From assembly GCA_017893485.1 (NCBI GenBank), contig CM030364.1:203976827-204040826 (forward strand): a stretch of DNA of 64,000 nucleotides. Direction: 5' to 3'. This stretch comes from Hemerocallis citrina. Its lineage: Eukaryota; Streptophyta; Magnoliopsida; Asparagales; Asphodelaceae. The notes under the pieces are model-generated. The model saw nothing but the letters and a program-made list of their open reading frames with translations, ran no database searches and was not told the origin of the DNA. The translations under genes were made by a program, and so were the position numbers. Positions 35,828 through 60,365 of the stretch are shown in pieces; the stretch's first letter is position 1, and the number at the start of each line of letters is the position of its first letter.

Positions 35828-36819
35828 CTAGATGTAATGCTTCCACTTTATCATGCGGTAAAATGGAAGGCCAAAATTGGTGAAGAATAAGAATTCATCG
35901 ATAATGGTATCGATGAAAGAAAAGGAGTGTGCAAAAATACATCTGTTCCGTTCCGACCAAATCACCCAAATGATATCCATCAAAGAAAGAAACCAGGAAT
36001 TACGAAACTCTTTCTTGAGAGCTTGAGACATCCAGCACGAGGATAAATCATTGGGGATAGCGGAGGCTTGCCAAGCGAGAATATTAATGTTCCACAATGG
36101 TTGAGTAAAGTTGCAATGGAGCAAAAGGTGGTTGGCGTCTTCATGAGCGGAAGAGCACAATGCGCATAATTGACCTAAGGCCAGGTTCATATTATTTAGA
36201 TCCTCAATGGTGAGGAGTTTGTTATTGAGAGCAAGCCAGTTAAGGATCTTGACTTTTAATCCATAAAGGCTTAGCAAGCGGGAAATAAATACCACCAAAA
36301 TTAAGAAAGATGCAGAACGATTTAACCGTGTAATTACCAGAACTGGTCCATCGCCATTTGAAATCTTCTGAGGGTTGCCAGAGATAAAGGTTAAGGTTGA
36401 CGAAAAGCTCTTGAAGCTCAATCTCAAGCGTCAAAGGTAGAACGCAACTAAATTGAATAGACCAGAACTTTTGCTCAGTGATGATAGTAATATAATCTGC
36501 ACTGTGGCCGAGGGATTGGTAGTCAGTTGGTATAGCGAAGGGAAGGCCAAAGCAAGCCTAATCTTACCGAACCATAAGTCGACCTAGAACTTGGTCTTAG
36601 AATCATCAGCGCACACATGAGAAATACCACATTGGAAGGGACCAACTGCTTTCCAGATCCCCTTCAAAAAAGGAGAGGACTTGCGAGAAAGGGTGGTAGG
36701 AAATTCCTAAATCTTACGATGGGAGAAACATTTCAAGGAGATAAGGCGAGCCTAGGGTAAATGATCATATTTTAGAATTCTCCATAACCATTTGCCCAGG
36801 AGAGCTAAATTTTGGTGCC
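35828..36819 (-). pseudogene. LINE ORF2, C-terminal part (zinc-binding reverse transcriptase domain)
   Basis: The frame reads ALNNKLLTIEDLNNMNLALG, then CALCSSAHEDANHLLLHC, a zf-RVT-type Cys/His pattern common at the end of plant L1 ORF2. WVIWSERNRCIF follows, another typical phrase. The part is separated from the RT part by the solo LTR at 36825-39937. A frame change occurs near 36420. Confidence 0.85.
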
Positions 36820-36824
36820 TTAGG

Positions 36825-39800
36825 TGTAATGCCCTGAATTTTTCATTCATGAAAATTAGTTATTTATTTCATTATTTTGCACGTAGTGTGCACGTGCCAT
36901 TTTATGAAATTTTATAATGAATGATGAGTATATGTCTATGTATATATGCTTGCTAAATTATTTCTTTTTAAAAGGTCCTTATTTCAAATAAACTTAAGCC
37001 CAAAATCTAAATTATTTATTTTGTAAAAGTTAATGTTTTGGCCCATTAATTTAAGCCCAAGAATTAATTCTCTTTTTAAACTTGTAAAGTAAAACTCTTT
37101 TAAAAGATTATTTTGTAAAAATGTATATGTACAAGTTTGTTTATATGGAGAATAGAATAGCACGTGCATGCAACATAGTGTGCATTGCACACTATTCCTT
37201 CCATGGCCGGTTTTAATCTTTTGGAGGGAATTGGAAATTTTCAAATAAAGATCATGCATGGGTGGTTACTTAGTTGTGGGTAGTTAATGCAACTCCTACT
37301 TTCATCTTAGCCCTCCATCTCATAACCATCTACTAGATCCCAGCCTTCCATTTTACCCAAAGTTTGTGTATAAATAACCTCCCCCCCCCCCCCCCCCCCC
37401 CAATTAATTGTAATCTACACAAAAAAAATCTATTTGGAAGAGAAAGATATATTTGCAAGAGAGTTGTGAATGTGATTATTCTTTGGAGGCCGGCACTACT
37501 TCAGAAGATTCTCGGTGGCAAGGAGCAAGGAGGAAGAGTCACATTATCACTAGAAGGCTTTTTCGGGATTTCGTTTATTTCGTCAACAAGGTGGGTGTTT
37601 CTCAGGACTTCTAATATAGTGATCATGCTAGGACAATTTTGATTGTTATCATGCTTGTGGAATGTGGATTGATATGGTGATCATTATACTAAAATGCGTT
37701 GTGCTATACTTAGTATGAAAAATGTGAATGAATGAACATAATTAATGAAATTTAAAAGATCGGAACTGACCTGTACAGTCGACCGATCATGTGAATAAGT
37801 CGATTGGTACGAGGTGGATGTTTCCCATGACTTCTAAATTAGAATTCATGTTAAGATCGAGGATTTAATTGTGTATGTATGTGTAAACTGAAGTGATAGA
37901 ATGATTGTTAAATTGATATCTTCCATGCTGTACATAGTGTAAAAATTATGAACTTATGAAAAAGGACTAATAATAATTAGAGAACTCGAAATGACCTGTA
38001 CAGTCGACCGGTCGTATGAACAGTCGACTGGTATATTGAAAGAAAATATATACAGTTCGGATTTTCATGAAACGACATATTTTTATGTGAATTATTAACT
38101 TGATGTTCTAGCATGTTAAATTGGGATTAGTATTCATCTCCGTGAGTAAATGATGAGTAAAAGAAAAAATATATGTTTAGCATTTCCTTTTGAGAAAATA
38201 AAACACTAGTTATGTGGAATTTACATTTAATCGAAAACTATGTTGTGATGTTAATAAACATATAAGAAGGTCGTGTTTATGTTGGCATGAGCACATTGTA
38301 GTGTGACAAAAAATGATGTGAGAACAGATTAAAGAGAGAATTCCTTAGATTGAAAGTTTAATCTGCTCAGTCGACCGAATGTATGTAACAGTCGACTGTA
38401 CTGGACTTGAAAGGTTACATAATTGAACTCTGCTGAACAGCCGACTGGGTTGATCGACAGTCGACTGCACTGTAAATGATATTTGAATTTTTGAACGCTG
38501 CGGAATAGCCGACTGGCCATGTGCAGCAGTCGACTCTTCCGAGCAGTTTACTGAAGGACTTTGTTTGACTGAACAAGTCGACTGGATGAGCTCTAAGTCG
38601 ACTGTCCAAAGCACTTTTTGACATCTCAGAAATTCTATGAATTGTTTTATAATAGAGATTATGAATCTTATGTTGAATATTGGTTGTGACAGTAAACCCT
38701 ATTTGTCTTTGTATGAATTAATATGAAGTGAATTATTTATTTGAATTTGTGAAAGTTATATAATTGTGGAACTATGAACATGAAAAAGAAAATCTATGGT
38801 GATTATGAAAAATGAACTCATGAGCTGGAAATGCTCAGTTTTTTTTTAGTAATTGTGAATTGGAATTGAAATGAAAGAGTAGCTAAGTCTCCCCCGGCAA
38901 TTGGAAAGAGATTGAAATGAATTACCGAAATGAAAGACCAAGGTTGGTCATTTTGAATGAATGATTAAGTCCGGTTTAGTGGAGAGGCTAACTCTAAGGC
39001 TTTGATTTTGTTTATGATTCTAATAAAACTAAGGACTAGTACATAGTGGAGACGTGATGCAAGTAAGAGAAAAATACTGAGTATGAGGGCCATTGGATTG
39101 GCGGCGAGAGTGTATCCCAGGATGTCCCATGATGAGTAATGATAGGGCGTGGATACTGCTCCAGAGTACCGTCCCGGTGGCGACGCTCGTGGGGTGTTTG
39201 AAGACTACGGGTGGTGTCATGTCTATGGTAGGAGCTGAATTACCATAGGATGCCTGCATGATGAGTCATGTGTCAGTGCATTGGGATTCCCTCCAGGGCG
39301 CCTAGACATGAGTTCGTAGGTCAGAAAACATCTAGGATACTTACCAGTAGTAGATTAAGTCACGACGAGGGATTGAACCCTACAAGATGAAGAACGATTA
39401 AGGACTTGCCCTCGGACCTATGTAGTATGGGATGCATAGACTCTGAACAAGTGCGCATTAGTGTCATATAATATAACCATTGCATTAAGGATTAAGATCA
39501 CAACCACAACACAACATCTTTAAGATTTCCCCTTTATGTTGACATGTGAACAAGTTTGTGATTTGTTAAGAAATGAGAATCATTATACTGTTTCTGGCAT
39601 AGAGAGGATGGCCATGTATAATTATCGTCGGTTGAATAAACTGACGTACCCACAGTTTTATATGCAGGATAATTGGCTTGATAAAGGTTAAAGGAGAGCC
39701 AATGCTCAAAGATTATGTATTGTTGCATCTTTTGTATAAAGTTGTAATTGCTTCTGCTGTCATTATTTGTAAATTATTGATGTATATGTTTTGGCTGTAA

Positions 39801-39937
39801 AATATAAAGTGTAAAATCTCATGTAACTCCGATGTATAGTGAAAAGTTTTCAATTCCTTGTAAAATTGTACCGAATGAGATGAAAAGATCTTGTAGAACT
39901 CTCGAATTCAGTTGTATTTGGGATTCAGGACGTTACA
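36825..39937 (+). mobile_element. Solo LTR (chromovirus-like) in LINE ORF2, TSD TTAGG; carries paired GTCGAC dyads
   Basis: It starts TGTAATGCCCTGAATTTTTC and ends GATTCAGGACGTTACA, flanked by TTAGG (36820-36824 and 39938-39942). Length is 3,113 bp. A TATA-like TGTATAAATAACC lies near 37367, followed by a 22-base poly-C run. No gag or pol is present. Its sister, in opposite orientation, is at 57007-60254. The central part (37778-38602) carries six paired GTCGAC motifs that the sister lacks. Confidence 0.88.
37778..38602. repeat. Six paired GTCGAC dyads in the solo LTR
   Basis: Core starts pair as 37778/37799, 38003/38023, 38370/38391, 38440/38460, 38508/38529 and 38577/38597, so spacings are 20 or 21. 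Most half-sites fit (C/A)AGTCGAC(T/C)G; decayed ones are GTCGAT or GCCGAC. Spacers between the half-sites are unrelated in sequence. Confidence 0.9.
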
Positions 39938-39942
39938 TTAGG

Positions 39943-41834
39943 TCAAGAACCCCAAGGCCTCTCGCCGCTTTGGAGGTACAAATCAACTTCCAGTTGCAGA
40001 GATGAGAGCCATCTCTATAAGTATCAGCACCAGACCTGAAGAAGTTCCTTCTGATTTGGTCAATCCTCTTAATAACCCAAGATGATACGTAAAAAATGAC
40101 ATCATATAAAGATGAATAAAAGAAAGGATAGAGTTGGCCAGAATAAGCCTGCCTCCGCGCGAGAGGTGCTTTCCAGACCAAACATTAAGTCTAGATTCCA
40201 CTTTTTCAATCATCGGCATCCAATCTGATTTATGAAGTTTCCCCCATCTCAAGGGAATACCGAGATACTGGATAGGAAAGGAGGCAGGAACACAGTTGAA
40301 GAAATGCGCAATTTCAACTTGACGGTTGGGAGGCCCTCCAAGCCAAAGAACCGATGATTTTTGAAAGTTGATAGATAAACCAGAGGCATTTTCAAATATA
40401 TACAGAAGTAACTTGAGGTTCCTTAAGGTGTACCCAGTGGGTATGGCAAAGATAATAGTGTCATCGGCATATTGAAGGTTTAGCTCGCCACAGTAACATT
40501 GGGAACCCCCAAGACCATCGATAACCCCAACCTCCCAGGCATTACAGAGCAACTTACTGCAGACATCGGCCATAAGAGAGAATAGGAGGAAGAAAATAGG
40601 ATCACCCTGTCGAAGGCCACACTTACACTTAAATTTGTGACCTTCCGAACTATTGATAATAATGGACGAGGTTCCAGCGAACAGACTGGATTTAATCCAA
40701 GCGATCCATTTAGGACCGAAACCATGGTGAAGAAGGATTTCGAAATGGAAATCCCAACTAACAATCATAAGCTTTGTGGAAATCTAATTTTAAAAGAATA
40801 CCCTCTGAATTGGACCTATGGCATTCGGTAATGATTTCTTGAGCCAACACCATGCTATCTAGAATAAAGCGGTCTTTGATAAACCCGTTTGAGCGGGGTC
40901 GATCAAGGGGGAAATATTCGCGCTGAGACGGGTCGGAAGAACTTTCATAATGATTTTGAAAGTCATATTAAAAAGGCTAATCGGTCGAAAGTTAGAGACC
41001 GAGTTGGCTCCCAAGATTTTGGGGATGAGAATGATATGAGCATAATTGATCCTGTCAAAGGAGAAAGATCCTTGGTGAAGGTCAGAGAACATTTTGAGAA
41101 GATCTTCTTTGAGATAGTCCCAAAACCTTTGGAAGAAAAAAGCTGGAAATCCATCCGGCCCTGGGGCGGAATCACTCTTCAACGGAAACACCGCGGACTT
41201 AATCTCCTCTAAAGAAAAAGGATCTTCCAGGCTAGACAAGTCATGAGACCGCTGCCCGTACAATTGGGACCAGTCCAAATGAATGGAACGATGTTTATAA
41301 GATCCCAGAAGCTCTTTGAAGAAACGAAGGAAAGATGCATGGATATCAGAGTCAGAAGTTAATTCATTACCATTATCGAGGATAGAAGAAATACGATTAT
41401 ATCATTGACGATGAGAAGCAATGTTGTGGAAGAAAGAGGTGTTGCCATCACCATCCTTAAGCCAACGAAATTTAGCCCTCTGGGCCCATTTAATATAGTC
41501 GTTATGAAGGAGGGAAGCATATTCTCTCTTACATGATGCACGTTCTGATCGTAGGGATTCCAAAATAGGTCCAAGCTCCTCAAGTTTATCAATGGACTCA
41601 ATGGAAGAGAGAAAAACATTTTAAAGGAAATTTGCACTGGCAAATCTCTCTTTACGCCAAATCTTACAACCGAATTTAATAGCGTGAAGCTTAAGAAGGA
41701 TGCGACCCAGACCGGAAGAGCCCGAGATAGCATAGAGGCACTCCATAATGAGATTGACGAAAATTTGATCCTGTAACCAGAATTTTTCAAAACGAAATTT
41801 GAACTTTCTAGTGAAATTATAGTTAGAGAACAAT
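39943..41834 (-). pseudogene. LINE ORF2, reverse transcriptase part
   Basis: Minus-strand frames give SDSAPGPDGFPAFFFQRFWD and NFRPISLFNMTFKIIMKVLP (40859-41278). Then GLRQGDPIFFLLFSLMADV and the catalytic YADDTIIF follow (39983-40768), the order expected for the palm of an L1 reverse transcriptase. A frameshift separates the two blocks near 40800-40860. The upstream linker to the endonuclease (41359-41834) is cut by the Athila insertion. Confidence 0.88.
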
Positions 41835-41839
41835 GATAT

Positions 41840-43518
41840 TGTTGTGCTATCTAGATGATCTAAACTAATAGAATAACTAGACACAAATTAAAACCTCGCA
41901 AGTGTACGAATCGTTTATAGAAGCGTAGCAATAGCAAGGGTCGATCCCACAGAGATTGTAGAAATTAACTTACTAATCAATAAAAAGAGTGAGAATGATA
42001 AAGAGTTGTTCCAAAAGTCCAAAAGAAATGAAAAGATTAAAACTAAATTAAGAAATGCTGGATCACAATTATCTAGTGAGTAGTTGGGTTAAGATCTCCA
42101 CCAATAGTCAATAATGCCAAGTCACCTTCTGACTTCTTCTTATTACTCATGTTTGTTCTCTTCAAGGGCATGGTATCTACTCCTTAAAGTAATGTTTCCC
42201 TAAGCTAAGAATTAGGCATGGTATCTACTCTAATTCGTTTCTTTCATTAAGAATTTAGCATGGTATCTACTAAGTTGCTCTTAAAGAAAACATAAGCACA
42301 GTGGAAACGAACGAACAGTCAAGGTCCTAGAAATTGGTATCAGATCTAGATCCCTCAAGTTGATTAAACCAAGAACCCCTAAGGACTCCTTTGTTACTAG
42401 TTATGAGCACGAGATATGGGTCGTCTCAATATGCTCATATAACAGCTTCAGATCTACACTACACAACTTGATAATCTTTAGTTCTGTATGTCAGTCGACT
42501 GGCTGTCACTTCAGTCGACTGCTCCTAGAACATCTCAACAAGTTTGTTTTATGTAAATTGTTCTTCGTTTAATCAGGTTTAATCAATAAGTAAAAGAGTA
42601 ACATTCAGAAGAACTTAGCATTACATAACTACGGCTTCAATCTACCCAACTATGAAATTAGTTCCACATAATAAAACTTTTATTGATCAACAAGTTAGAA
42701 TACATGATTAACATAAAAGAATTAGAAAGAGAAGGAATAAACTGATGTAGTTCGGCTAGATGAGTCGGCTGGCTGTCACACAGTCGACCGGCCGTTCTTC
42801 TTCTTAGTACTTGATCTCCTTTCTCCTTCTTCTATGCTGATAAGTATTGTTCTCGGTTGATATGTTGATGATTCTGGAACTCTTGTGATCCGGTTGATGG
42901 TGTGTGCGGAAAAGCGTGAAAGATGACGAGAGATAGATCCAGAGCGAGAGAGAGAGAGACAGAGAGAGAGAGAGAGTAATGCTTCTTGGTATTTATAGAT
43001 CAAGGCTAGAGAATTAGGGGTTGCACTTTTCTTTTTATAGAAAAGTCCTTTTCTTTTATTTATTTCCTCCCTCGTTGCTCTGCGTATTATTTCTTTCTCT
43101 TTTCTTCTATTCTTCCTTTTCTGTTCTGATTTGGATTAGCGAATCTTCAAATATCTTATCTTTTAACTCTGCCGCCTACCAGTCGACTTGTCTTCGAACC
43201 AGTCGACTGTGTCGAGACTTCTGAAGATTTCATAATTGATCATACAAGTCGACTGTGCTTTGGAATAAGTCGACTGCAACGAGCGGCTGTGGAAAATCAA
43301 CTTCTCTGTCCAGTCGACTGCTGTGGGGAACCAGTCGACCGATGATCTGCAGTTTTCTGTGTATCATCCTTAAAATCCTGAATCTGCTTCGTTTCTCCGT
43401 TTTAGGCTGTTCCCTATGGAAAAGAGAAAATAAGAGTTAAATACCACATATAGAGCTTTTAAATGTCTAATTGCATTAAGATTATTGCTCCTAAATGTGG
43501 ATAATATTGTGTTCATCA
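41840..43518 (-). repeat. 3' LTR of the Athila element
   Basis: On the minus strand it starts TGATGAACACAATATTATCC and ends GCACAACA. It contains five paired GTCGAC dyads (42494-43339) and an AG-microsatellite near 42945-42976 that is longer than in the other LTR. Confidence 0.92.
42494..43339. repeat. Five paired GTCGAC dyads in the Athila 3' LTR
   Basis: Core starts pair as 42494/42514, 42764/42783 (first core GTCGGC), 43182/43202, 43248/43269 and 43313/43334, giving spacings of 20, 19, 20, 21 and 21. Confidence 0.9.
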
Positions 43519-43533
43519 AATACCCCCAAACTT
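43519..43533 (-). promoter_or_regulatory. Polypurine tract of the Athila element
   Basis: The minus strand reads AAGTTTGGGGGTATT directly before the 3' LTR, the expected primer site for plus-strand DNA synthesis. Confidence 0.8.
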
Positions 43534-44503
43534 AGATTTTGCTTATCCTCAAGCAAAAAGTGAACTTATGAGCAAGGGGAAAATAATAGTACTCTCAACC
43601 AAGAATTTTTTTATTATGTGAGCATCAGCATATTAAACTATAAACAATTTCAGATAAAGTAAAATTAAACATACCCACTTTCTCTAGTGCAATTGTTTAG
43701 TCATAATCCCCAAACCTAATCATATTTGTCATGCAATTAATTTTAATTATAGTATGTAACAACTCCATCTGTGATTATCCCTTTTCTCCACTACAAACCG
43801 AGTAGCAAACTCGAGTTTTTTTTTTTTTTGTTTTTTCTCTAAGTCTCTTCTCTAAAGTTGTCACTTGCCTTTTTACGCGAATGCAAAACATTTGTGATGA
43901 ATCCACCCGGTTACTCAGCAAGTCACAAACTTCAAAGTGCTTTGCATACTCATATTTCAAGTTGCCGTTTGATGTAAAGGTAAACATTGATGATGAATAC
44001 CCCTAGTTACTAAGCACCCAAAACATTGGAGTATATTGACTGTATTCAAATATATATATATATATATTTTATCACTCTATTTACTTAAACTCAATTTAGG
44101 ACTAGATCTAAAGGGAATAATCATCAGAAAAAGTATCACATTTGTTTATTATGTATAATCGCATGACTCATATAATTTTGTAAGGCATTATGAAACTCAA
44201 CAATCCTAAAGTAAATAAGTATCCTTACTATTACTTTATAAGAAATTGTTTATCCTAAAAAAAATTTCAAAAGACTCCAAATATAACTAACTAATACCCC
44301 CAAACTTAGATGGAACATTGTCCTCAATGTTCGCGCAAAGCATAAAATATAGGCATGTGTTACCATCTAGTAAGAAGGAGAGACTAAAAATAAAAAGATG
44401 AATAACGAAAAGAAAATGAAAGGAAAGTGTAAATACTCCCCTGAAAATTGGGTTGCCTCCCAATAAGCGCTGTGTTTTCTGTCTTCAGCTAGACTTGATG
44501 AGG

Positions 44504-45748
44504 TCATGCCATGTATTGAATGGTTTGAAGATTCACATCTTCCTCTTGCGGTTCTATGCTCATCTCTATGTATGGCTTCGCTCTATGCCCGTTCACCTTA
44601 AATGTTTGATTCTTCTCTTTGCTATGAACCTCCAATGCACTATGTGGAAAGACTCTTGTGACAATGTATGGCCCATACCATCTTGACATGAGCTTGCCTG
44701 GAAAAAGTCTTAATTTTGAGTTGTATATCAGTACCTTCTGTCCTTCATAAAACTCCTTCCTTGCTAGCTGTTTGTCATGGTACAACTTGGTCCTTTCCTT
44801 GTACAATTTTGCATTTTCATATGCGTCATGCCTCAACTCTTCAAGCTCATTTAGTTGCAATCTTCTTTTGTCACCTGCTTGTTTCATATCAAAATTGAAC
44901 CTTTTAATGGCCCAATAAGCTTTGTGTTCCAACTCCACTGGTAGATGACAGGCTTTTCCAAAAACCAAACGGTATGGTGACATGCCGATGGATGTTTTGT
45001 AAGCTATTCGGTAGGCCCATAATGCATCATTCAAGCGCAGCGACCAATCCTTCCTCCTTGTGTTGACTGTCTTTTCCAAAATGCTCTTGATTTCTCTGTT
45101 GCTAATCTCCACCTGTCCACTAGTTTGAGGGTGGTATGGGGTGCCCACTCTATGTGTGATACCATATTTCTTCATCAAAGAAGCAAATGGAAAGTTATTG
45201 AAGTGGCTCCCTCCATCACTAATTATTGCCCGTGGTGTATCAAACCTAGTGAAAATGTTCTCCTGCAAAAACTTGACAACAACTTTGTGATCATTAGTTT
45301 TTGAGGGGACAGCCTCGACCCATTTAGACACATAATCCACACCCACAAGAATATATAAATAACCAAATGAGTTAGGAAAGGGACCCATGAAGTCGATTCC
45401 CCAAACGTCAAAAAGCTCGATTACTTGGATGTTTTGCAGTGGCATCTGATTTCTAGAAGAGATGTTGCCTGTCCTTTGGCATTTGTCACAAGTGCTGCAA
45501 AAAGAAAAAGCATCTTTAAATACTTTAGGCCAATAAAATCTAGATTGTAATACCTTGAGTGCTGTTCTTTTTGGTCCAAAATGTCCTCCACATGCATATT
45601 GGTGGCAATGTTGTAGAATACTTATTTGCTCTTCTTCTGCCACACATCTTCTTATAATTTGATCAGGGCAAAATTTGAACAAATAAGGATCATCCCAATA
45701 ATAGTGCTTGCACATAGCCACCAGTCTCTTTCTTTCTTGACTTGTCAT
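44504..45748 (-). CDS. Athila integrase domain of pol, open over 414 codons
   Basis: The frame contains an HHCC zinc-binding N-terminus ([12 protein letters not shown] and CSTCDKCQ) at about residues 45-95. The catalytic core has Asp in [10 protein letters not shown], Asp in IISDGGSHF, and Glu in [12 protein letters not shown] basic C-terminal domain with SRWYGPYIV follows. It inserts element cDNA into the chromosome. It is in the same frame as RT-RNase H upstream; only one stop, near 45827, separates them. The Met at 45748 is internal to the ancestral polyprotein, so independent translation is doubtful. Confidence 0.85.
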
Positions 45749-45825
45749 ACCTGGAGGGAAAACATGAGCAGTGGGATAATTTACAATATCTGCAAACCAT
45801 GGAAAATATGAGTAGTGAGATACCA

Positions 45826-45851
45826 GTCAACTGGTCCTGTTACCAGTCGAC
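45826..45851. repeat. Paired GTCGAC dyad at the RT/integrase junction, one core mutated
   Basis: The cores start at 45826 (GTCAAC, mutated) and 45846 (GTCGAC), 20 apart. On the minus strand the mutated core changes CGA to TGA in the pol frame and creates the stop that ends the RT-RNase H frame. Confidence 0.88.
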
Positions 45852-47155
45852 TGTCCCGGTGATATGTTTATTTCAAACAGGTGTTCATCCGGGAAATTTT
45901 CATTAAGTGGGAGAATTCTTTCTTCCTCATGCAGTAGTCTGGACATGTGATCTGCCACAACATTGTCACTTCCTTTCTTGTCTCTAATATCAAGATCGAA
46001 TTCTTGAAGCAACAACACCCATCTGATCAACCTAGCCTTAGCATCCTTTTTGGCAAACAAATATCTCAAAGCAGCATGGTCAGTGAAAACAATAACTTTA
46101 GAACCAATTAAATATGATCTAAACTTCTCTACAGCAAAAATAACAGCTAACATTTCTTTTTCAGTAGTGGAATAATTTAGCTGTGCATCGTTTAAAGTTC
46201 GAGAAGCATAGTAAATAACATGGGGTGTCTTATTGATTCTGTGACCTAAAACAGCCCCTAAAGCATAATCACTTGCATCACACATGAGCTCGAAAGGATG
46301 GCTCCAATCTGGTGCCATGACAATAGGTGCAGAAATGAGAAGATTTTTCAATGTAATAAAAGCATTTGTGCATTCTTCTGTCCATGCAAACTCAACATCC
46401 TTAGTCAACAAGTCACAAAGGGGTTTGGAGATTTTTGAGAAATCTTTTATAAATCTTCTATAGAACCCTGCATGTCCAAGAAAACTCCTAACACCCTTGA
46501 CTGTAGTGGGAGGGGGTAGTTTTGATATTATATCAATTTTCGCTTTGTCTACCTCTATACCTCTTTTTGACACCACATGTCCTAAGACAATACCTTGTTG
46601 TACCATAAAATGGCACTTTTCCCAATTCAGCACTAAATTGCATTCTTCACATCTTTTAAGCACAAGCTGCAAATGGTTAAGGCATTCATCAAAACAAGAT
46701 CCAAAAACGCTAAAATCATCCATAAATACCTCGATGAACCTTTCCACCATGTCTGAAAATATACTCATCATGCACCTCTGAAATGTAGCTGGTGCATTGC
46801 ACAATCCAAAGGGCATCCTCCTGTATGCAAAAGTACCAAAAGGACATGTAAAAGTGATTTTTTCTTGATCTTCTGGAGCAATAGCAATTTGATTATAGCC
46901 ACTATAACCATCTAAAAAGCAATAATGACTATATCCTGCTAATCTTTCTAACATTTGATCAATAAAAGGAAGAGGGAAGTGATCTTTCCTAGTTTCGTTA
47001 TTCAGCTTCCTGTAGTCTATGCATACCCTCCATCCTGTAGTCACTCTAGTAGGGATAAGCTTATTTTCTTCATTCTTCACCACTGTGACTCCACTTTTCT
47101 TAGGCACTACATGTATAGGACTTGCTATCTGAGATTGGGTAAATGATTCCAACAT
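45827..47155 (-). CDS. Athila reverse transcriptase and RNase H domains of pol
   Basis: The 442-codon frame carries [31 protein letters not shown], and the palm motif [11 protein letters not shown] with the catalytic Asp pair. RNase H phrases [11 protein letters not shown] and [14 protein letters not shown] follow. These match the Athila clade of Ty3/gypsy. The start at 47155 is not the natural one; homology enters from another frame upstream (47110-47810) through a frameshift, and the end at 45827 is a nonsense codon. Confidence 0.88.
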
Positions 47156-48532
47156 CTAGTAGCTTCAAAATCTCTGCTCTTACCACTTCCTTCATGTTTG
47201 GATTAAGCCTTCTCTGTGCTTCCCTGCTTGGTTTTGCATTGTCTTCAAGAAGTATTCTATGCATGCATTTGGATGGACTTATTCCCTTGATATCTGCAAT
47301 GGTCCATTCTATTGCACCTTTGTGTTCTCGTAGTACCCTCAGCAACTTATCTTCTTCCTGTGCACTCAGGTTCGCAGCAATTATCACAGGTAGCGTTTGG
47401 TTCTCGCCCAAGTATGCATGCTTCAAATGGTCGGGCAGCTGCTTAAGCTCTTCGTCTGGAAGTCTCGGTGCAGTCGACTGGTTCTGTCCACCAGTCGACT
47501 TGTCTGCAGAAACAAAAATGTCACCCGTCACCAATTTTTCAAATACAGGTGCAAAGTTACCTGAGTATGACTTTGGAGTTTCAAGGTGATGTACTGTCTC
47601 TGCAATCCCCCAGTTATCGTATTCCTGTTCAACATTAGATAAAGTCAGAGATTGTGTAATTGTGGCTTGTAGTAGTTCGATGCTATGTACCTGAAATGTT
47701 TGATCAACAATCTCCTGAACCACATCAACATTATAGCATTCATGATCATCATGTGGTAATTTAAGCGTATCAAACATTTTAAACTCAACTTTTTCTCCAT
47801 TTATCTTCATACTTATAGTACCCTTTTTAACACAAATTTTTATATCAGCTGACTCATAAAGGGCCTACCTAGGATAATCGGTAGGGACGATGGCATTGAA
47901 GATTCTTCCATATCTAACACAACAAAATCAGCAGGCAAAATAAAATCGTTTACCTGAACTAGGACATCTTCCAAAATACCTCTAGGTCTTTTGATGCTGC
48001 GATCTGCCAACTGCAAAGTGATGGATGTTGGTTTAAGTTCCCCCAATCATAGCTTTTCATAAACAGAGTAAAGAAGAAGATTGATGCTTGCCCCCAAGTC
48101 TAGCAGTGCCTTTTCAAAGAAGTGCTCACCAACCCTGCAAGGAATGGTAAAACTACCTGGGTCCTTCAATTTAGGAGGTAGTTTTCTTAATAATACAACG
48201 CTCACTTCCTCTGTCAAAGCCACATCCTCCTTAACCTGAAATGTTCTTTTGTGAGTACAACAGTCCTTCAAAAATTTGGCATAAAAAGGAATTTGTTTAA
48301 TAGCATCAAGTAAGGGGATATTAATTTCTACCTTTCTGAGAGTTTCAAAGATGTCAAATAAATGTTGTTCTTTCTTTTGCTTGACTAACCTTTGAGGGAA
48401 TAGTGGCACAACTGTTCTTTCTTTTTCACTTACCTTGTTGGAACTCAAAACTTTTGATGGTTGTGTTTCTGCTTCTTCTGTGTGTGTTCCAACTTTGTTG
48501 TCAATTATTTTACCATTTCTTAATGTTGTCAC
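47110..48532 (-). pseudogene. Athila protease and pre-RT linker, broken
   Basis: The first part (48532-48047) begins with a TLRNGKIIDNK phrase after gag and holds the protease-like ALLDLGASINLL. A TGA near 48047 interrupts it; the same frame then gives [10 protein letters not shown] before a frameshift near 47850. The next part (47810-47110) holds MKINGEKVEFKMFDTL and a linker to RT. The paired GTCGAC dyad at 47473/47494 lies in this linker. A second frameshift near 47110 leads into RT. Confidence 0.82.
47473..47499. repeat. Paired GTCGAC dyad in the protease-RT linker
   Basis: Core starts are 47473 and 47494, 21 apart (seven codons). The pair is read in frame on the minus strand as two Ser-Thr steps within DKSTGGQNQSTAP. 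Confidence 0.9.
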
Positions 48533-48541
48533 TGCCTTGAG

Positions 48542-49942
48542 CTATTCTTGGCCTCCAGGGTTTGGTATAGTTTGTGATGGGAGTTCACCTGCCTTTCGTT
48601 CGCTTAATTCTTTCGCAATTTGACCAATTTGCATTTCCAACTTCTGAATTGCTTGCCCTTGTTGGTTGCTTGTTTGATGTTGTTGTTGGAGCAATTGAAG
48701 AACGGTGGATTCAAAATCCAACTTCTTCTGTTCTTGAACTGGCCTATCAAACCCACCTCCCATTTGGAAGTTCCGTGCATGTCCTTGTGTGAATTGAGTC
48801 TCTTGATTATTCTGATTATTGCTCCAGGAGAAGTTTGGATGGTTCCTCCACCCTGGGTTGTATGTGTTCGAGAAGGGATTGTTCTTTTGTGGAAACACTC
48901 CTCGACCTACATAGTTTGCATGCTCCTGATCTGTGAAAGAAGACATGGGACATGTATCAGTGGTATGATCTACATGAGAACAAATTGCACAAATTTCGTT
49001 TGTTTGATTTTTAACTCTACCCATCATCGACATTGCATTAACAAGCATATCAATTTTCTTATTCATGTTTACCATTTCTAATTGAATGTTATTGCTATTA
49101 GAAATTTCGTAAACTCCCTGTTTTTTGGAAGGGCCCCTCCTTGTTGAGAATTATTGTGAATTCTCGCTGAGTTCTTCAAATAGTTCAATGGCCTCTTCAC
49201 CGCTTTTCCTCATTAAGATCCCGTTGCAAGCTGAATCCACAATTGCCTTGTTAGTATCATTTAAACCTTCATAAAATGCTTGTACCTGATCATCTTTAGG
49301 CATGTTGTGTGTAGGGCACTTGAGAAGCTTGTTCTTGAAATCCTTCCATGCTTCGAAGAATAAATCTCCATCTTTTTGTTGGAAGAGTTGAATCTCCCTT
49401 TTCAGCTGTTTGGTCTTTTGGGCTGGAAAGAATTCTTTCAAGAATTTTGTCGCCAATTGCTCCCATGAGTTTATTGATCCTGGTTTCAAAGAATTATACC
49501 ATAGTTTAGCGTTAAGTTTTAAGGAAAAAGGAAACAAGATTAACCTGATTTGTTCAGGGGTAAGCCCTTGGACGCTTTGTGTCCTGCAAAGATCGAAAAA
49601 GTCTTGCAGATGGAGATGAGGCTCTTCATCTGGTTTGCCACTAAAGTGGGGAACCATGCTAAGTAATTGAGGAGATAGATGCATGTTTCCTGTGACATTA
49701 GGCTGATACACAATGCAGGAAGGTTGCTCGATATTCTTAGGCGTGAACTTGTCCTGCATTGGCACTCGATTTGGCATTTCCTCACCCATTGCTGTATGTG
49801 AACTGGGTCTCTGAGCAGTCGACTGGTTTGTAGAGACAGTCGACTGGTTTGCTGCAACCAGCTTACCTAGTCTGTGCAAAGTGCGTTCTGTTTTTGCGTC
49901 AATAGGTAGTAGTTCTGGACGAAGTGATCTCCTTCCGTGCAT
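48542..49942 (-). pseudogene. Athila gag with capsid domain and CCHC knuckle, one internal stop
   Basis: The frame starts MHGRRSLRPELL at 49942. It includes a capsid-like retrotransposon gag domain with LNAKLWYNSLKPGSINSWEQ and FKNKLLKCPTHNMPKDDQV, then a TAA at about 49151. The same frame continues to the zinc knuckle CAICSHVDHTTDTC (about 48955-48995) and a Gln-rich stretch. A TAG at about 48542 separates it from protease, again in the same frame. A GTCGAC dyad lies near the N-terminus (49818/49839). Confidence 0.88.
49818..49844. repeat. Paired GTCGAC dyad in the gag N-terminal linker
   Basis: Core starts are 49818 and 49839, 21 apart, read in frame on the minus strand as NQSTVSTNQSTAQR, a seven-residue repeat. 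It lies in the low-complexity region before the capsid domain. Confidence 0.9.
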
Positions 49943-50046
49943 CCACCAAAATCCTATAACCTAAAAGAAAAATACTTATTAATAAAATTAAAAGAAAAAA
50001 AAAAATAAAAACTTTCTACTGATCTGTAAGTTAAAATACTAGACAA

Positions 50047-50064
50047 TCCCCGGCAGCGGCGCCA
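50047..50064 (-). promoter_or_regulatory. Primer-binding site of the Athila element (tRNA-Asp type)
   Basis: The minus strand reads TGGCGCCGCTGCCGGGGA six bases after the 5' LTR, the usual Athila primer site complementary to the 3' end of tRNA-Asp, with one likely mismatch. Confidence 0.85.
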
Positions 50065-50070
50065 AAAACT

Positions 50071-51740
50071 TGTTGTGCTATCTAGATGATCTAAACTAAT
50101 AGAATAACTAGACACAAATTAAAACCTCGCAAGTGTACGAATCGTTTATAGAAGCGTAGCAATAGCAAGGGTCGATCCCACAGAGATTGTAGAAATTAAC
50201 TTACTAATCAATAAAAAGAGTGAGAATGATAAAGAGTTGTTCCAAAAGTCCAAAAGAAATGAAAAGATTAAAACTAAATTAAGAAATGCTGGATCACAAT
50301 TATCTAGTGAGTAGTTGGGTTAAGATATCCACCAATAGTCAATAATGCCAAGTCACCTTCTGACTTCTTCTTATTACTCATGTTTGTTCTCTTCAAGGGC
50401 ATGGTATCTACTCCTTAAAGTAATGTTTCCCTAAGCCAAGAATTAGGCATGGTATCTACTCTAATTCGTTTCTTTCATTAAGAATTTAGCATGGTATCTA
50501 CTAAGTTGCTCTTAAAGAAAACATAAGCACAGTGGAAACGAACGAACAGTCAAGGTCCTAGAAATTGGTATCAGATCTAGATCCCTCAAGTTGATTAAAC
50601 CAAGAACCCCTAAGGACTCCTTTGTTACTAGTTATGAGCACGAGATACGGGTCGTCTCAATATGCTCATATAACAGCTTCAGATCTACACTACACAACTT
50701 GATAATCTTTAGTTCTGTATGTCAGTCGACTGGCTATCACTTCAGTCGACTGCTCCTAGAACATCTCAACAAGTTTGTTTTATGTAAATTGTTATTCGTT
50801 TAATCAGGTTTAATCAATAAGTAAAAGAGTAACATTCAGAAGAACTTAGCATTACATAACTACGGCTTCAATCTACCCAACTATGAAATTAGTTCCATAT
50901 AATAAAACTTTTATTGATCAACAAGTTCGAATACATGATTAACATAAAAGAATTAGAAAGAGAAGGAATAAACTGATGTAGTTCGGCTAGATGAGTCGGC
51001 TGGCTGTCACACAGTCGACCGGCCGTTCTTCTTCTTAGTACTTGATCTCCTTTCTCCTTCTTCTATGCTGATAAGTATTGTTCTCGGTTGATATGTTGAT
51101 GATTCTGGAACTCTTGTGATCCGGTTGATGGTGTGTGCGGAAAAGCGTGAAAGATGACGAGAGATAGATCCAGAGCGAGAGAGAGAGAGAGTAATGCTTC
51201 TTGGTATTTATAGATCACGGCTAGAGAATTAGGGTTTGCACTTTTCTTTTTATAGAAAAGTCCTTTTCTTTTATTTATTTCCTCCCTCGTTGCTCTGCGT
51301 ATTATTTCTTTCTCTTTTCTTCTATTCTTCCTTTTCTGTTCTGATTTGGATTAGATTTGGACGAATCTTCAAATATCTTATCTTTTAACTCTGCCGCCTA
51401 CCAGTCGACTTGTCTTCAAACCAGTCGACTGTGTCGAGACTTCTGAAGATTTCATAATTGATCATACAAGTCGACTGTGCTTTGGAATAAGTCGACTGCA
51501 ACGAGCGGCTGTGGAAAATTAACTTCTCTGTCCAGTCGACTGCTGTGGGGAACCAGTCGACCGATGATCTGCAGTTTTCTGTGTATCATCCTTAAAATCC
51601 TGAATCTGCTTCGTTTCTCCGTTTTAGGCTGTTCCCTATGGAAAAGAGAAAATAAGAGTTAAATACCACATATAGAGCTTTTAAATGTCTAATTGCATTA
51701 AGATTATTGCTCCTAAATGTGGATAATATTGTGTTCATAA
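50071..51740 (-). repeat. 5' LTR of the Athila element, with five paired GTCGAC dyads
   Basis: It is nearly identical to 41840-43518. The dyads start at 50725/50745 and end with 51535/51556. Differences include an inserted phrase near 51355 (ATTTGGA-like), a shorter AG-microsatellite, and a changed base in the terminal TCATCA, here TCATAA. Confidence 0.92.
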
Positions 51741-53120
51741 GATATTAGCATGTGGTCCGAAGACGGGTTGGGCATGGCTGAAGCAAAGGAGTTGTGGAAA
51801 TAGTTAATCCAATCAATGGAAACGAGAAAGCGATTGAGCTTAGCGATAGTCGGCGACAACCGCATGTTAGACCAAGTGAATGATCTACCATTGATTGGTA
51901 TTTCAGTCAATTGAAGGGAACGGATGCAGTCATTAAAATGGGAGGAAGCTAAAGAGTTGGAAGTGATCCCTTATCTTTCACAGGAGAATCTGGTGACGTT
52001 AAAGTCACCACAAAAGACACAGAACCCTTGAATGGAGTTTTGGAAAGAATAAATTCGTTCCAAAACTCGTCTCGACGATCTACGGTAGACAGATCGTAAA
52101 CAGAGACCACAGTGAGTTGTCAATTAAATTCAAACCAGTGGAGACGAACCATGAGAAAGAAAGAAAATCTACAAATCGAGATGAGGGAGAAGCGGTCATC
52201 TTTAAAGCCAAATAGGATCCCTCCTCTTGATCCGATGGCATCAAGAGAAATCCAATTGGAAATTAAAGATCCCCCAATCGAAGGATGGAAGGGGACGGGG
52301 ATCCAAGTTTAGATTCTTGAATGGAGATCAAATCACAATGGGAGGAAGAAATCAGTTGGAATATAGCTTGTTGCTTGGCCGCACTCCTCAGACCCCTATC
52401 GTTCCAAGAGATACTAATCATGATAACCCTTACTCTCAAAAGCTCTAGAAATTTCGCAACTTCGAATAGAATCAAAGTCAACAAAGTTGTCCGAGTTTGC
52501 CGGAAACCCCATCGCCTTAGAAAGGCGAAGCATCTCAAGATTTGATAAGGTACCGAACTGTACCTGATAGATGGAACCTAATTGGTCCATCCCAGAAGAT
52601 GAGGGAGTGGGGAAGAGCAATCAGCCTTGCAGAACTGAGTCGCCAGGGGAACATGTACATCCCTCGAATCTCCCAAGGTTCTTTTATCCCAAATACGAGC
52701 ACTAGAGCAAATGACTGGGATGGGTTTTTTCTTCGAAGAAGCAATTAGCTGTCTCCTAGGGAGGCTAGCAAGAGAAGATTGCATCGAACCCTCAGAGAGA
52801 ATTTCTGAGGAGGTGGGGATTAAGTTCATTCGATCAATTAAACCGGGAGAAGTGAACGAGGATGGAGGAGAAAATGGATCAGGGTGAGTAGACGGGAATT
52901 GAGAGAGGGAGATCTCTCCACACCGACGGGGAGGGCTGACACCCACCGGGTTCGGTGTCGGAGCCCAAAGACGGGAATTAAAGTGAATATAAGTAGTGAG
53001 ACAATACGCAAGAGAGTAACTTGCCGAAAATGAAGAGAAAACACCAAATTGGAAAAAGTAACCACAATTGAAATAGCAACCATGAGACGAGGGGAATTAA
53101 AAAACCACTGAATTAAAAGA
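51741..53120 (-). pseudogene. LINE ORF2, endonuclease part
   Basis: Near 52430 the minus strand reads ISWNDRGLRSAAKQQAIFQL and CDLISIQESKL, the start of an AP-type endonuclease. At 51746-51910 it reads INGRSFTWSNMRLSPTIAKL and a SSDHMLIS end typical of plant L1 endonuclease. Between them the frame is shifted. The enzyme would nick target DNA to prime reverse transcription. The Athila insertion follows directly; the LINE frame continues in phase on its other side. Confidence 0.85.
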
Positions 53121-53228
53121 AAAAATTACCTGTGGTTGTAGATTGGCCTGGTCCAGATCAGCAACTTCATCTCCCAAAAGGTCGTCCTGATCGAACCAAG
53201 CATCAACTTTCGGAGAGGAGGAGGGGAA

Positions 53229-54633
53229 TGTTGATTCTTGATTTTGATGATCACAACACAGTGCAACATGTGTCTATGTTATACAGCTAACATTGCAGGT
53301 TGTACATACAAAAGACTATTTCAGCTGAACAAATGAACAAGCTCAAAGGATACATTTAAAGACTTCACTCAGACAAGATTCAAGATTTCACTCAAGACAA
53401 GACTCAAGACTCAAGACCTTTAGCTCAATTGTGTCAAAATTGTAGTGTCTTGTAAAAACATTGTATCTTACTTTTTGTTGAGTCTTAGTCTGATGTAAAG
53501 CCTTGTCACACACACACACACACTCAATTTCATAATGTGTGTTTCTTAAAACCCCCCCCCAAAAGAGTCAAAACAGTTTGAAGTAATTTAACTTTTGAGT
53601 ACCAGTCGACTTAAGCTTTTGCCAGTCGACTGATAGTACAAAACTGTTTAAATTTATTCAAACTCTGATCAGTCGACTCATATGGCAACCCAGTCGACTG
53701 TTCGAGAGCTTTTGACCGTTTTCTGTTTTCAAAATCAAATTTTTTCAAAATCAAAAGCTTAGATCCATTGGTTGACAGTTGGAGTAACTGTCTCCCAACG
53801 TCCAGAAGATCAAACTCTATAAGTAGAGTTCAGATCTCACTGAAAATATCAACAGAATATATTCTTTGAAATTCGAGCATTCCTTGAGAAAAATTCTAAG
53901 TGATATTTTTGAGAAAAGAAGGCTTTCAAGTTCAAACTCTCTGGTTCTCTACACTCAGTCCAGTATAGCAACGATTTCGCTCTGGACTGGGTATAGAAGT
54001 CAACCTTGTTTTTAGCCACGTGCAACAACACAAAACACCAACAAGGCTATAGGTTGACTGTAAAATTTTTCTTGTTCTTTTGCTCTCGGTTGGAGAGTGT
54101 TTTTGACTCTAGGTTGTAGAGTTGGTTTGTTTCACTCTTGGTAGTAGAGTGGGTCTGCTTTCTCTGGTTGAGAGAAAGGACTACGGGTTAGACAAGGTTG
54201 TTGTCTTAACGCCGTAGGGTATTCTTGTAATCTTTTTCAAGAATAGTGGAAATCTCAAGTGGGTTGCTTGGGGACTGGATGTAGGTCGGGAGGACCGAAC
54301 CAGGATATATCTTGTGTACTCTGTGATTGGTTGTCTTGATTTTGCATTTACTCTTGTTTACTTAAGTTCTGCAAAAAGTGTCTGGACAGTCGACTCCTTG
54401 CACTAGCAGTCGACTGGTCAGTGTCGTATAAGTTGTATTTTCATTGTGTCTTCAGTCGCCTATCTTAATCTATAAGTCGACTACACAGAGTTACTATTTT
54501 TGCTTTATTTTGGTCACATCAGTCGACTGGTTCATAACCAAGTCGACTGCACCGAAGAAAATTTTCACAGTTTTTTTATTAACACTATTCACCCCCCCTC
54601 TAGTGTTTGTTGTCTCACCTACAGGATCCAACA
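53229..54633 (+). mobile_element. SIRE-like copia solo LTR in the LINE, TSD GGGAA; carries paired GTCGAC dyads
   Basis: It starts TGTTGATTCTTGATTTTGAT and ends GGATCCAACA, flanked by GGGAA (53224-53228 and 54634-54638). The phrase ACTATTCACCCCCCCTCTAG before the end is typical of SIRE/Maximus copia LTRs. Length is 1,405 bp and no internal genes are present. A CA-microsatellite lies near 53503-53523. Confidence 0.85.
53605..54547. repeat. Five paired GTCGAC dyads in the SIRE-like solo LTR
   Basis: Core starts pair as 53605/53625, 53672/53693, 54389/54409, 54455/54476 (first core GTCGCC) and 54522/54542. Spacings are 20, 21, 20, 21 and 20. Confidence 0.9.
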
Positions 54634-54638
54634 GGGAA

Positions 54639-56259
54639 CACTTTAAGTGTAGCTGGATTGGATTTGGAGGTAGAAGGAGCGTAGTGCATCGCACTCTTAT
54701 ACTTGTCCCAATTAGAGGAAAAATGCGAATTCACCTCCCAAACAGTCCACTTTTCATCAGACTCAACTAAAGTGGGCACCGAGGGAACGAGGGATGGTGT
54801 AACAGCAGCAGCGAGATTCAGAACTGAGTGAGGCCCTGACGGAGGTGGCAGTGGTAGTTTTGGAGGGATCTCGATAGAGCCAGAAGGAATGGGGATAGTG
54901 TGCTTCATAGCGGCTAAGTCTGGGTTAATCTAGACAAGGTTATGGGCTTTAGACGACGAGATTTTGGGCTTAGAAGGAGAGATAAAGCCTTCGCGATGGG
55001 TAGGGAAGTTTTTTTAATTAGGAGCTTTGTGCGACGCCCTCCACTTGGAAGTAGGAACATTCGACTGAGAAGAAGTTCCGACAGCAAACGTACTGGGAAA
55101 AGAGGAAGGAGCCTCAGTGGACTTAGGAGCTTCAAGTGCCAAACGAGCAGTATTCGATCTATTCTTCGCATTATTTTGATAAATGACAAAAATAGCGAAG
55201 GTAGTTAACTTATCTCTTAACGAGTAAGCATCAGCCTTGTCATCCCCCAGAGGGAAAAAGAACTTAGCATCAACCTGAAGGCAACCGGAAGCCAACATGG
55301 AAGAGGAAGAAATGCGATGCAGCTCTGCCACACATTTGGTCATGTCAGCGACAAGACGGTGAGAATCACAGAAGGGCGGAAGACCAAGTAGAGTAACTTG
55401 TACGGGGGATTGGACCAAGGAAGGAGGAGGCTGACCCTGGTGCCCCCATTTTCGAATAGAAATCCTAATAGCACCGATGGAAAGGGAGTTGATTGTAATA
55501 AGATCTTCCAGAGTTTGAATGGAGGGGCAGTTAATGACTACTTCTCCGTTAGAACAAGTGTTAATAACCCACCCCCAATCTTGGACATTACATGAGTTGC
55601 ACAGAAAGGAATCAATGGTATTCTTAGACATTGAACCTCCGGTGAAGGCAACCGCACCATAGCACTCAAACATTTTCATTCTATCCGAGAGCTCCACAGA
55701 GGGAATGAAAATAAAGGTGAATTGGGGCTTGCGCACCTGAAGAGGAGGATGAGAGAGCACTTGGGGGAGGGCTTCACCACAGCAAATAAATGCTGCGAAA
55801 CTGGAGGCGTAGGGAGGAGAGGAGAAGCAGAAGTCAATTTCACCTTCTTGGGCTTGTGAGCTTGAAAGTCCGCAAGCTTGGATTGAAGAGAGGGGAAGTC
55901 AAGTGCTGCCAATACCTGATCGGAAATGGGAACACCCAAAGAAAGACCCAAGATTTGCTGAAGAGAGAAATAGCGATTACGGGAGTGGCCTGCTTTAAGG
56001 CAAAACAGAAAGCCTTAACGTGCCCAGGTTGGAGACAACGGAAACAAACTGGGGCGAGGGAAGGAGAAGAAGGAGAAGAGCTTATCGAATGAGAATGAGA
56101 GAGGGAGGAGAAAGGGCGGTAAAAGGACGGAGACGCTCGTCCCAGAACCTTCTGTGAAATGGGCAGACCAATAAGAGGGTTCGAAGGAACCGGAGAAAAC
56201 GTCGTTGTAATATTTTTTGTTTTGTTTTTTTTAACAATCTCAACCCAAGAAGAGCCCAT
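54639..56259 (-). pseudogene. LINE ORF1 (nucleic-acid-binding protein with CCHC knuckle)
   Basis: The frame from 56259 starts MGSSWVEIVKKNKTKN and holds a zinc knuckle CFRCLQPGHVKAFC, a Ser-rich linker before it, and then changes frame near 55840. The block 55014-55760 carries WGWVINTCSNGEVVINCPSI and a Lys/Ser-rich end. The last block (54639-54908) is Pro/Ser-rich and is cut by the SIRE-like LTR; it continues at about 53223-53120 with an acidic phrase. ORF1 coats LINE RNA. Frameshifts make this copy inactive. Confidence 0.8.
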
Positions 56260-57006
56260 ATCGGCTCGAGCCTAAAACCAATAAAAAGAGGACAGAAAGG
56301 GAAAAAATTAGACAAACAATTACTGTAGCAATTAGAACATCCGATCGAAGAGGGCAAAAACAGCTCCAAAAACTGGAGAAAAATAATAATAAATCAAGCT
56401 TTATGATCTTAATCAAAAAGGAAAGAAATGCTAAAATCACTTTAAAGGGATCAAAAGATCCAAACAACCAACTCACAAATGACCAAACCAGGAGATCAGT
56501 AACCATTAAATCGCTGCTAGGTCACCGAGAGAGCGAAAAAACTAGCACGAAGGATGATGGAAATAAGAGGTGAACGAGAAGGAGATCAACGAAGGATCTC
56601 AGAAGAAAAAACCATAGAGAGAAACCAGAAAATGGGAGCGGAAAGGTAAGTAGAATAAAAAAACCACATACAATAACTCACGATGATTGGCATGCAAACC
56701 TTCACTGCAAAGCACCGGGATTGACGAAAACTGCTGGGGGTTCCGCAGCTGAAACTCGGCTAGGCCGTAGCTCAAGCCCTCAGGGACGGAGAGAAGGAAA
56801 GGGAACCTCCACAGAAGCTCCAAGAACAACCCGCACAGCCAGAGGCAACATAATTTAAGGGATGTAAACCGAAGTGAGCAAAGGGGGAGGCGCTGGACTC
56901 CGCATGAGAAGGGCCACCGAAGCAGAACAAGACGACGCGAGGACGCTGTAAGCCAGGCTACCGGAGGTAAAAAGGCGCGGAAACCGAAGGGGCCCAGGGG
57001 GGAGAT
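56260..57006 (-). other. 5' UTR of the LINE (3' part)
   Basis: GC-richer non-coding sequence upstream of ORF1. It continues beyond the solo LTR at 60255-60348, which ends at the 5' TSD. No ORF here has recognisable homology. Confidence 0.65.
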
Positions 57007-60254: not shown

Positions 60255-60365
60255 GAGATAAAACGGAACGAGGGAGATGGGTGTGAAGGGAATCGCAAGC
60301 CGAACGCTATGATGGAAGGGAGAAGGCGAATCAGAGGGACAGGCGACCACTTTAGCTTCATTGTT

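Follow-up and report, generated by a model that had tools for sequence, protein, structure and literature searches.

Palindrome pairs at a fixed spacing of 20 or 21 bp recur in several families of LTR retrotransposons of Hemerocallis citrina

The 64,000-nucleotide stretch of Hemerocallis citrina DNA analysed here (GenBank assembly GCA_017893485.1, contig CM030364.1, positions 203,976,827 to 204,040,826 of the forward strand; hereafter the window) carries the palindromic 10-mer CAGTCGACTG, centred on GTCGAC, in closely spaced pairs within a solo long terminal repeat (LTR), an Athila element and the LTR of a Sirevirus-like copia element. This paired arrangement is real and genome-wide: the 3.775-Gb host genome contains 71,792 exact CAGTCGACTG pairs with a gap of 8-12 bp between the two cores, while the backward-read control gave 0. 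Judging from the sequence, we lean towards the reading that the pairs are a shared composite operator for a dimeric DNA-binding protein, which would activate or protect LTR elements.

Within the window, a pair was defined as two 10-mers, each with at most 2 mismatches to CAGTCGACTG, and spacing was measured from core start to core start. The scan gave 24 pairs at 19-21 bp and reproduced both the count and the places of the original prediction, which had been made by eye from the letters: the solo LTR accounts for 6, the two Athila LTRs for 5 apiece, the coding region of Athila for 3 and the copia LTR for 5. Dinucleotide shuffles of the window (n=200) gave a mean of 0.015 pairs and a maximum of 1, and a chance origin of the 24 pairs was thus rejected. 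At other spacings, 1 pair was detected at 1-18 bp and 2 at 23-40 bp. The further claim that every core within the named elements is paired also held: a second core (within 2 mismatches) accompanies 41 of the 43 GTCGAC sites at a distance of 19-22 bp, and the remaining two, at 31292 and 36578, are both located outside the pair-bearing elements. Open reading frames of at least 70 amino acids were listed for 43.0-56.5 kb, and those of gag-pol were scanned with Pfam. The pairs (no strand assigned; those within LTRs as given by the 10-mer scan) and the landmarks of the Athila element are as follows.

37776..37806, pair, solo LTR (group A, see below), spacing 21
38001..38030, pair, solo LTR (group A), spacing 20
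38368..38398, pair, solo LTR (group A), spacing 21
38438..38467, pair, solo LTR (group A), spacing 20
38506..38536, pair, solo LTR (group A), spacing 21
38575..38604, pair, solo LTR (group A), spacing 20
41839..43522, minus strand, low-coordinate LTR of the Athila element, its 3' LTR when read in element sense; identity between the two LTRs 97.9%
42492..42521, pair, Athila LTR, downstream of TATA, spacing 20
42762..42790, pair, Athila LTR, downstream of TATA, spacing 19
42991..43039, minus strand, two TATA-like boxes of the Athila LTR, starting at 43039 and 42997
43180..43209, pair, Athila U3, upstream of TATA, spacing 20
43246..43276, pair, Athila U3, spacing 21
43311..43341, pair, Athila U3, spacing 21
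45824..45853, pair, Athila RNase H-integrase linker, spacing 20; the related Athila copy L007 lacks 54 of the bases here
47471..47501, pair, Athila linker ahead of reverse transcriptase, spacing 21; L007 lacks 33 of the bases here, alignment less certain
49816..49846, pair, Athila linker at the N-terminus of gag, spacing 21; L007 lacks 39 of the bases here
50070..51744, minus strand, high-coordinate LTR of the Athila element, its 5' LTR when read in element sense
50723..50752, pair, Athila LTR, spacing 20
50993..51021, pair, Athila LTR, spacing 19
51402..51431, pair, Athila U3, spacing 20
51468..51498, pair, Athila U3, spacing 21
51533..51563, pair, Athila U3, spacing 21
53603..53632, pair, Sirevirus-like copia LTR, spacing 20
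53670..53700, pair, Sirevirus-like copia LTR, spacing 21
54387..54416, pair, Sirevirus-like copia LTR, spacing 20
54453..54483, pair, Sirevirus-like copia LTR, two mismatches per core, spacing 21
54520..54549, pair, Sirevirus-like copia LTR, spacing 20

Beyond the window, the spacing rule was examined in 48 loci fetched from the same genome (49 sequences with the window) and in twenty stretches, each of 10 kb, placed at round coordinates. About half of the loci were picked for having pairs (L001-L004, L025-L033 and L036-L045 by exact pairs with gaps of 8-12, a choice that favours this spacing among the pairs so selected), while the window and the twenty stretches are free of pair-based selection. 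The twenty stretches contained 37 pairs at 19-22 bp, confined to 5 of the 20, and the core distances up to 150 bp formed one sharp peak (18 bp, 1; 19 bp, 4; 20 bp, 18; 21 bp, 11; 22 bp, 4), together with a second, broad peak at 46 and 64-72 bp, which represents pair-to-pair spacing. Under a stricter count that permits at most 3 mismatches over both cores and requires a 24-bp flank (23 of the window's 24 pairs pass, as do 33 in the 200-kb sample), all 128 pairs in the 49 sequences fell at 18-22 bp although spacings of 15-27 bp were permitted (18 bp, 1; 19 bp, 11; 20 bp, 63; 21 bp, 43; 22 bp, 10). After clustering, 53 distinct pairs remained (51 in an earlier clustering), 44 of them with a spacing of 20 or 21 bp. 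In the genome-wide counts, which cover gaps of 0-12 bp and give the same places for forward and reverse reading because the site is palindromic, exact pairs with gaps of 0-7 bp numbered 953 in total, nearly all with a 2-bp gap among the matches listed, and the corresponding control again gave none. Among nine control palindromes in the same 200-kb sample, pairs at 19-22 bp numbered 0 for GTCAGCTGAC, GACTCGAGTC and TCAGCGCTGA and 1 each for ACGTCGACGT and CATGCGCATG; the counts for CAGTGCACTG (5), CAGACGTCTG (6), CTGTCGACAG (10) and GAGTCGACTC (19) come from words two letters away from the motif, which may catch its own sites within 2 mismatches. The original prediction would have been refuted by the lack of a genome-wide peak at 19-21 bp; the twenty stretches show a sharp maximum at 20-21 bp, and over the gaps covered genome-wide, exact pairs with gaps of 8-12 exceed those with gaps of 0-7. 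As a separate observation, CAGTCGACTG cores 12 bp apart (2-bp gap) occur at G000 C1:4148474 and elsewhere, often as two such places about 4.9 kb apart, possibly the LTRs of one element with a different spacing.

The original prediction had placed the pairs in three retroelements, a view that proved too narrow. After masking of the cores, the pair-bearing loci fell into seven groups (A-G) without clear mutual similarity, the sole inter-group match being 30 bp between L005 and L026 at E 0.003. Four of the seven are LTR retrotransposons by their domains, namely Athila, a chromovirus and two copia lineages; lineage names beyond the Pfam domains are given by likeness. Group A comprises the solo LTR at 36.8 kb, its LTR status taken from the original prediction, with L001 and L011. 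Group B (L003, L004, L008, L012, L025 and others) is the element originally named Athila, a Ty3/gypsy gag-pol element with Retrotrans_gag, reverse transcriptase, RNase H and integrase domains that bears pairs in its own LTRs. Group C (L002, L005, L021 and L031) is a copia element, Sirevirus-like by likeness, with a long LTR followed by TTGGTATCAGAGCC. In group D (L026, L033, L039 and L040, with L027 and L028 joined by short matches), a chromodomain pol beside L033 is flanked by two places with the same spacers, 7.7 kb apart. Group E (L029, L044 and L045) is the second copia lineage, its LTR spacers recurring 19.7 kb away, and group F is L030 alone, which remained unplaced. Group G (L032 and L036) is a short non-coding element, TRIM-like by likeness, with two LTR-like repeats 510 bp apart, each LTR containing a single pair. 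Two side observations concern these groups. The window segments 57006-60255 (minus strand) and 36825-39937 are LTR-like copies with similar ends, the pair-bearing middle of the 36.8-kb copy being unmatched, as if a regulatory module had been exchanged. In L015 (253-345), which lacks CAGTCGACTG pairs, two pairs near CGGTCGACCG lie at 21 bp (253/274 and 315/336), with one mismatch in one core each, representing a second core wording at the same spacing; pairs within one mismatch of CGGTCGACCG in the 49 sequences are these two and one CAGTCGACCG pair in L011.

The pair rather than the single palindrome appears to be the unit. In the outward flanks of the cores, C is found at +3 in 63/106 and G at +5 in 66/106, with a weaker C at +4, and the combination CnG at +3/+5 is present in 50/106 outward but 1/106 inward flanks (Fisher p 3e-17), indicating that each core distinguishes its outer side, as independent palindromes would not. 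In a test for a directional site, the information was 45.5, with 20 shuffles, run with fewer restarts, reaching at most 45.4. Between homologous pairs in alignments of at most 92% identity (281 comparisons), the cores are 89% identical, the spacers 68%, the six outside bases 69%, the rest of the surrounding 40 bp on either side 74-75% and sequences farther out 81.5%; the queries were picked for having cores, which somewhat favours the cores. Across 360 alignments, both cores were kept in 349, the pair fell into a gap in 5 (all L007), and one core was kept in 6, all at a local duplication in L004.

Presence and absence of the pairs can be compared between Athila copies. L007 is 82% identical over 6 kb and has zero pairs. 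Where the window copy has its coding pairs, L007 lacks 39, 33 and 54 bases, each length being divisible by three (the middle alignment is less certain). L043 resembles L007 on both flanks of the site between RNase H and integrase, the two matching parts being separated by just 54 bases. As to what is kept at such sites, the same DNA word is read as QST in some frames and as SRL in others, both inside one L008 pair, indicating that the DNA rather than the peptide is maintained. The paired QST peptide was found in 0/173 and 0/120 homologous proteins from elsewhere, the linker being covered in this motif test in 7/53 gag and in 63/120 and 38/120 copia proteins. For the other two reading frames, the patterns SRL-x4-SR (a Vitis protein, P0079) and VD-x5-VD each occurred in 1/173, and all patterns in 0/120 of the second protein set. 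In the window copy, one coding core of the pair at 45824-45853 no longer contains CG (it reads CAGTTGACTG along the element), and the change creates a TGA stop in the linker.

Within the elements, the pairs are located near promoters and in protein linkers. A TATA-like box lies 54-345 bp downstream of pairs in four of the seven groups: three Athila pairs are about 140-345 bp upstream of the two TATA-like boxes, with two more downstream; two pairs of copia L005 are 114-214 bp upstream of the box, with three downstream near the LTR end; three pairs of L029 are 54-199 bp upstream; and the one pair of L032 is about 80-105 bp upstream. Coding pairs are found in linkers of three groups, at the gag N-terminus, before reverse transcriptase and between RNase H and integrase in Athila, in the gag/protease and integrase/reverse transcriptase linkers of copia C, and twice in the integrase/reverse transcriptase linker of copia E, so that the latter linker bears pairs in two copia lineages. 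Two coding linkers of L005 (6947-7020 and 8588-8657) contain four-core runs at 18-22 bp steps, longer in-phase arrays than the usual pair; the run at 6947-7011 has steps of 21, 21 and 22. The observed/expected CpG ratio was 0.77-1.19 in pair clusters against 0.32-0.63 in the interiors measured (same or sister copy) of four groups. For Athila, it was 1.13 in the cluster and 0.32 in the interior, 1.04 against 0.32 after removal of the cores, and 0.65 in the rest of the LTR.

Based on these features, we propose that each pair forms one two-fold symmetric site of about 40 bp, roughly CnGnn-CAGTCGACTG-N10/11-CAGTCGACTG-nnCnG, which a putative protein would contact as a pair of dimers, or as a single tetramer, its two halves lying two helical turns from each other and facing the same side of the DNA. 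A number of unrelated families of LTR retrotransposons would have acquired this site as a common operator, clustering it upstream of the LTR TATA box, with downstream pairs added in some families and further operators placed in coding stretches tolerant of insertions. Most likely, by analogy with VANC for VANDAL elements, the protein would benefit the elements, either as an activator of LTR transcription or by warding off silencing marks. Activation or anti-silencing is favoured over silencing since the sites persist in young elements and additional ones occur in linkers. Binding by a protein, the use of one and the same protein by all the families, and an activating or protective effect are what we infer; among the explanations offered in the original prediction, a protein binding two half-sites two helical turns apart is best supported, by the tight 20/21 spacing, the conserved cores with free spacers and the outward CnG. 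A wider proposal, which we put forward tentatively, is that one regulator, encoded by the host or by a transposable element, is the common master of many LTR retrotransposons of this plant, in families of both superfamilies and in a non-autonomous one, the operators having evolved independently or been captured, and some elements having inserted extra operators into gag-pol linkers to cover the whole element body.

Several observations weigh against the operator reading. The sole TATA-like box of group A is upstream of the pairs, at least 400 bp off and on the plus strand, and no upstream TATA-like box was recognised near the pairs of groups D and F; promoter placement is therefore limited to four of the seven groups. 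A simple promoter model leaves the coding sites unexplained. The pair-free L007 is also recent (LTRs 98.7% identical over 78 bp), so that pairs are dispensable for movement or activity, and the CpG contrast of the chromovirus nearly disappears after removal of the cores (0.71 against 0.62). As RNA, the U3 cluster of Athila has a strong fold (z -5.33, 0/200 shuffles as good), and 8/53 core deviations are compensated in the partner core against a mean of 2.7 with shuffled partners (55/2000 as high; 6/50 in an earlier set), a weak signal.

The last two points would be expected if the pairs acted as RNA, each folding into a 10-bp stem with a 10-nt loop, either as a source of double-stranded RNA for dicing into small RNAs or as a packaging or dimerisation signal; palindrome clusters in maize Sirevirus LTRs are in fact small-RNA hotspots, according to the portions available of PMC5311732 and PMC10760457. 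We nevertheless consider such a role unlikely. Palindromes fold well by construction, deviations are uncompensated in 45/53, and the left and right flanks lack covariation (87 matches over six bases at offset 0 against 103.6 in shuffles). The compensated changes are indecisive, because both positions mirror each other whether a hairpin is formed or a protein is bound, and the fixed 20/21 spacing with the in-phase four-core runs of L005 resembles a rule of the DNA helix rather than of a loop. Gypsy and copia elements have unrelated gag proteins, and a shared packaging signal is thus unlikely. At Rfam gathering scores, window positions 36000-56000 gave nothing.

A quite improbable alternative is neutral spread, in which a tiny sequence is multiplied by repeated micro-insertion, such as templated repair, with no function for the elements. 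The present and absent states at the three Athila coding sites, the extra local copies in L004 and L008 and the lack of the paired QST peptide elsewhere agree with it, while the difference in spacers and flanks between sites argues that no single unit was copied, and the cores stay conserved as spacers drift, with two reading frames kept. Accordingly, from the suggestion in the original prediction of a short sequence spreading between elements, the absence of the three coding pairs from L007 as gaps survives but copying of one mobile unit does not. Duplication of a 20-bp unit also left little trace, the spacer giving 124 matches to the right flank against a shuffled mean of 114 (284/2000 as high) and 133 to the left against 117 (79/2000 as high), a weak signal. 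Still less probable is shared descent, by which the LTRs exchanged one minisatellite with the pairs as its remnants. Inside an LTR, the distance from pair to pair is often about 63-80 bp, which diverged tandem units would also show, and cores in L027 recur at 78-80 bp in similar flanks, but with cores masked the groups share nothing save the 30 bp noted above, the TRIM-like LTR has one pair only, and pair-to-pair distances vary while the within-pair distance is constant. We assign hardly any probability to a host silencing or insulator target merely located in transposable elements and unused by them: the site is found across several families and its consensus is dense in CG and CHG positions, yet elements would be expected to shed such sites, and the very young L008 (LTRs 100% identical over 1,051 bp) is pair-rich, with extra cores in the linker before reverse transcriptase. 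Outside the plant, viral contigs gave 0 matches and a plasmid collection queried with an Athila LTR gave none.

The closest known system is the repeated motif (RM) of Sireviruses, a short palindrome repeated in the LTR upstream of a conserved TATA box, that of Vitis being CGGTCGACCG (Bousios et al. 2010, PMC2829016). Like the RMs, the present site is a palindrome in many copies (10 cores per Athila LTR and 10 in the copia LTR, where RMs have at least 8 per element), lies in CpG-rich LTR clusters by the observed/expected ratio, and shares the GTCGAC centre with CGGTCGACCG. For placement upstream of a TATA-like box the picture is mixed: such pairs are seen in four of the seven groups, those of Athila and copia being accompanied by downstream pairs. 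The present site differs in ending with CAG-CTG (consensus CAGTCGACTG) instead of the CGG-CCG signature, and in its distribution: RMs are called Sirevirus-specific and absent from classic elements, whereas the present site is also found in Ty3/gypsy Athila, around the chromodomain pol of a chromovirus with identical-spacer pairs, in a second copia lineage and in a TRIM-like element. The portion of PMC2829016 available mentions no fixed 20/21 bp pairing. It places some RM copies at the start of the ENV gene; the present pairs also lie in gag-pol linkers. The original statement that no earlier description was known must be modified, since a related motif is known while the pairing rule is not mentioned in that source. 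The maize Sirevirus LTR palindrome CACCGGACNNNGTCCGGTG (Bousios 2016, as cited in PMC5311732 and PMC10760457) is likewise clustered in a variable LTR region and, in a 2023 paper, also occurs in Helitrons, but it has another sequence and, in the portions available, is discussed for secondary structure and as a small-RNA target, not as pairs. The target motifs of VANC in Arabidopsis VANDAL elements accumulate to many copies per element by tandem gain and loss, their binding removes silencing, and the unrelated AT9TSD1 has the VANC6 motif (PMC5735166, PMC10398659). They resemble the present site as a short motif accumulating over an element and common to unrelated ones, but, as far as described in the portions available, they are non-palindromic, unpaired, mainly non-coding and carried by DNA transposons encoding their own binder. 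What is new, compared with RMs and VANC motifs as covered by these sources, is that the palindromes are paired by rule, that both superfamilies carry them and that they also occupy coding linkers. Among the matches listed for CAGTCGACTG or AGTCGACT in the literature, none was on retrotransposons by title and beginning of abstract, and no paper was found that joins a GTCGAC palindrome, a retrotransposon LTR and spacing.

Two further systems are alike in layout. Tnt1 and Tto1, each single-family elements, have dyad-symmetric or repeated activator boxes in U3, and EBNA1 and LANA of animal viruses occupy paired dimer sites about 21 bp apart. As in such paired dimer sites, two palindromes are held here at a fixed spacing of about 21 bp around a free spacer.

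In the usual view, each transposon family has its own regulatory sequences. If the operator reading is correct, one trans-acting protein would govern much of the transposon load of a 3.8-Gb genome, through a precise composite site common to gypsy, copia and non-autonomous elements and kept at the DNA level even inside protein genes. Competing transposons would then share a genome-wide network of activation or anti-silencing, and the site would offer a concrete handle, one probe and one protein, on how retrotransposons escape from, or make use of, host control, as well as several natural replicates for the study of convergent evolution.

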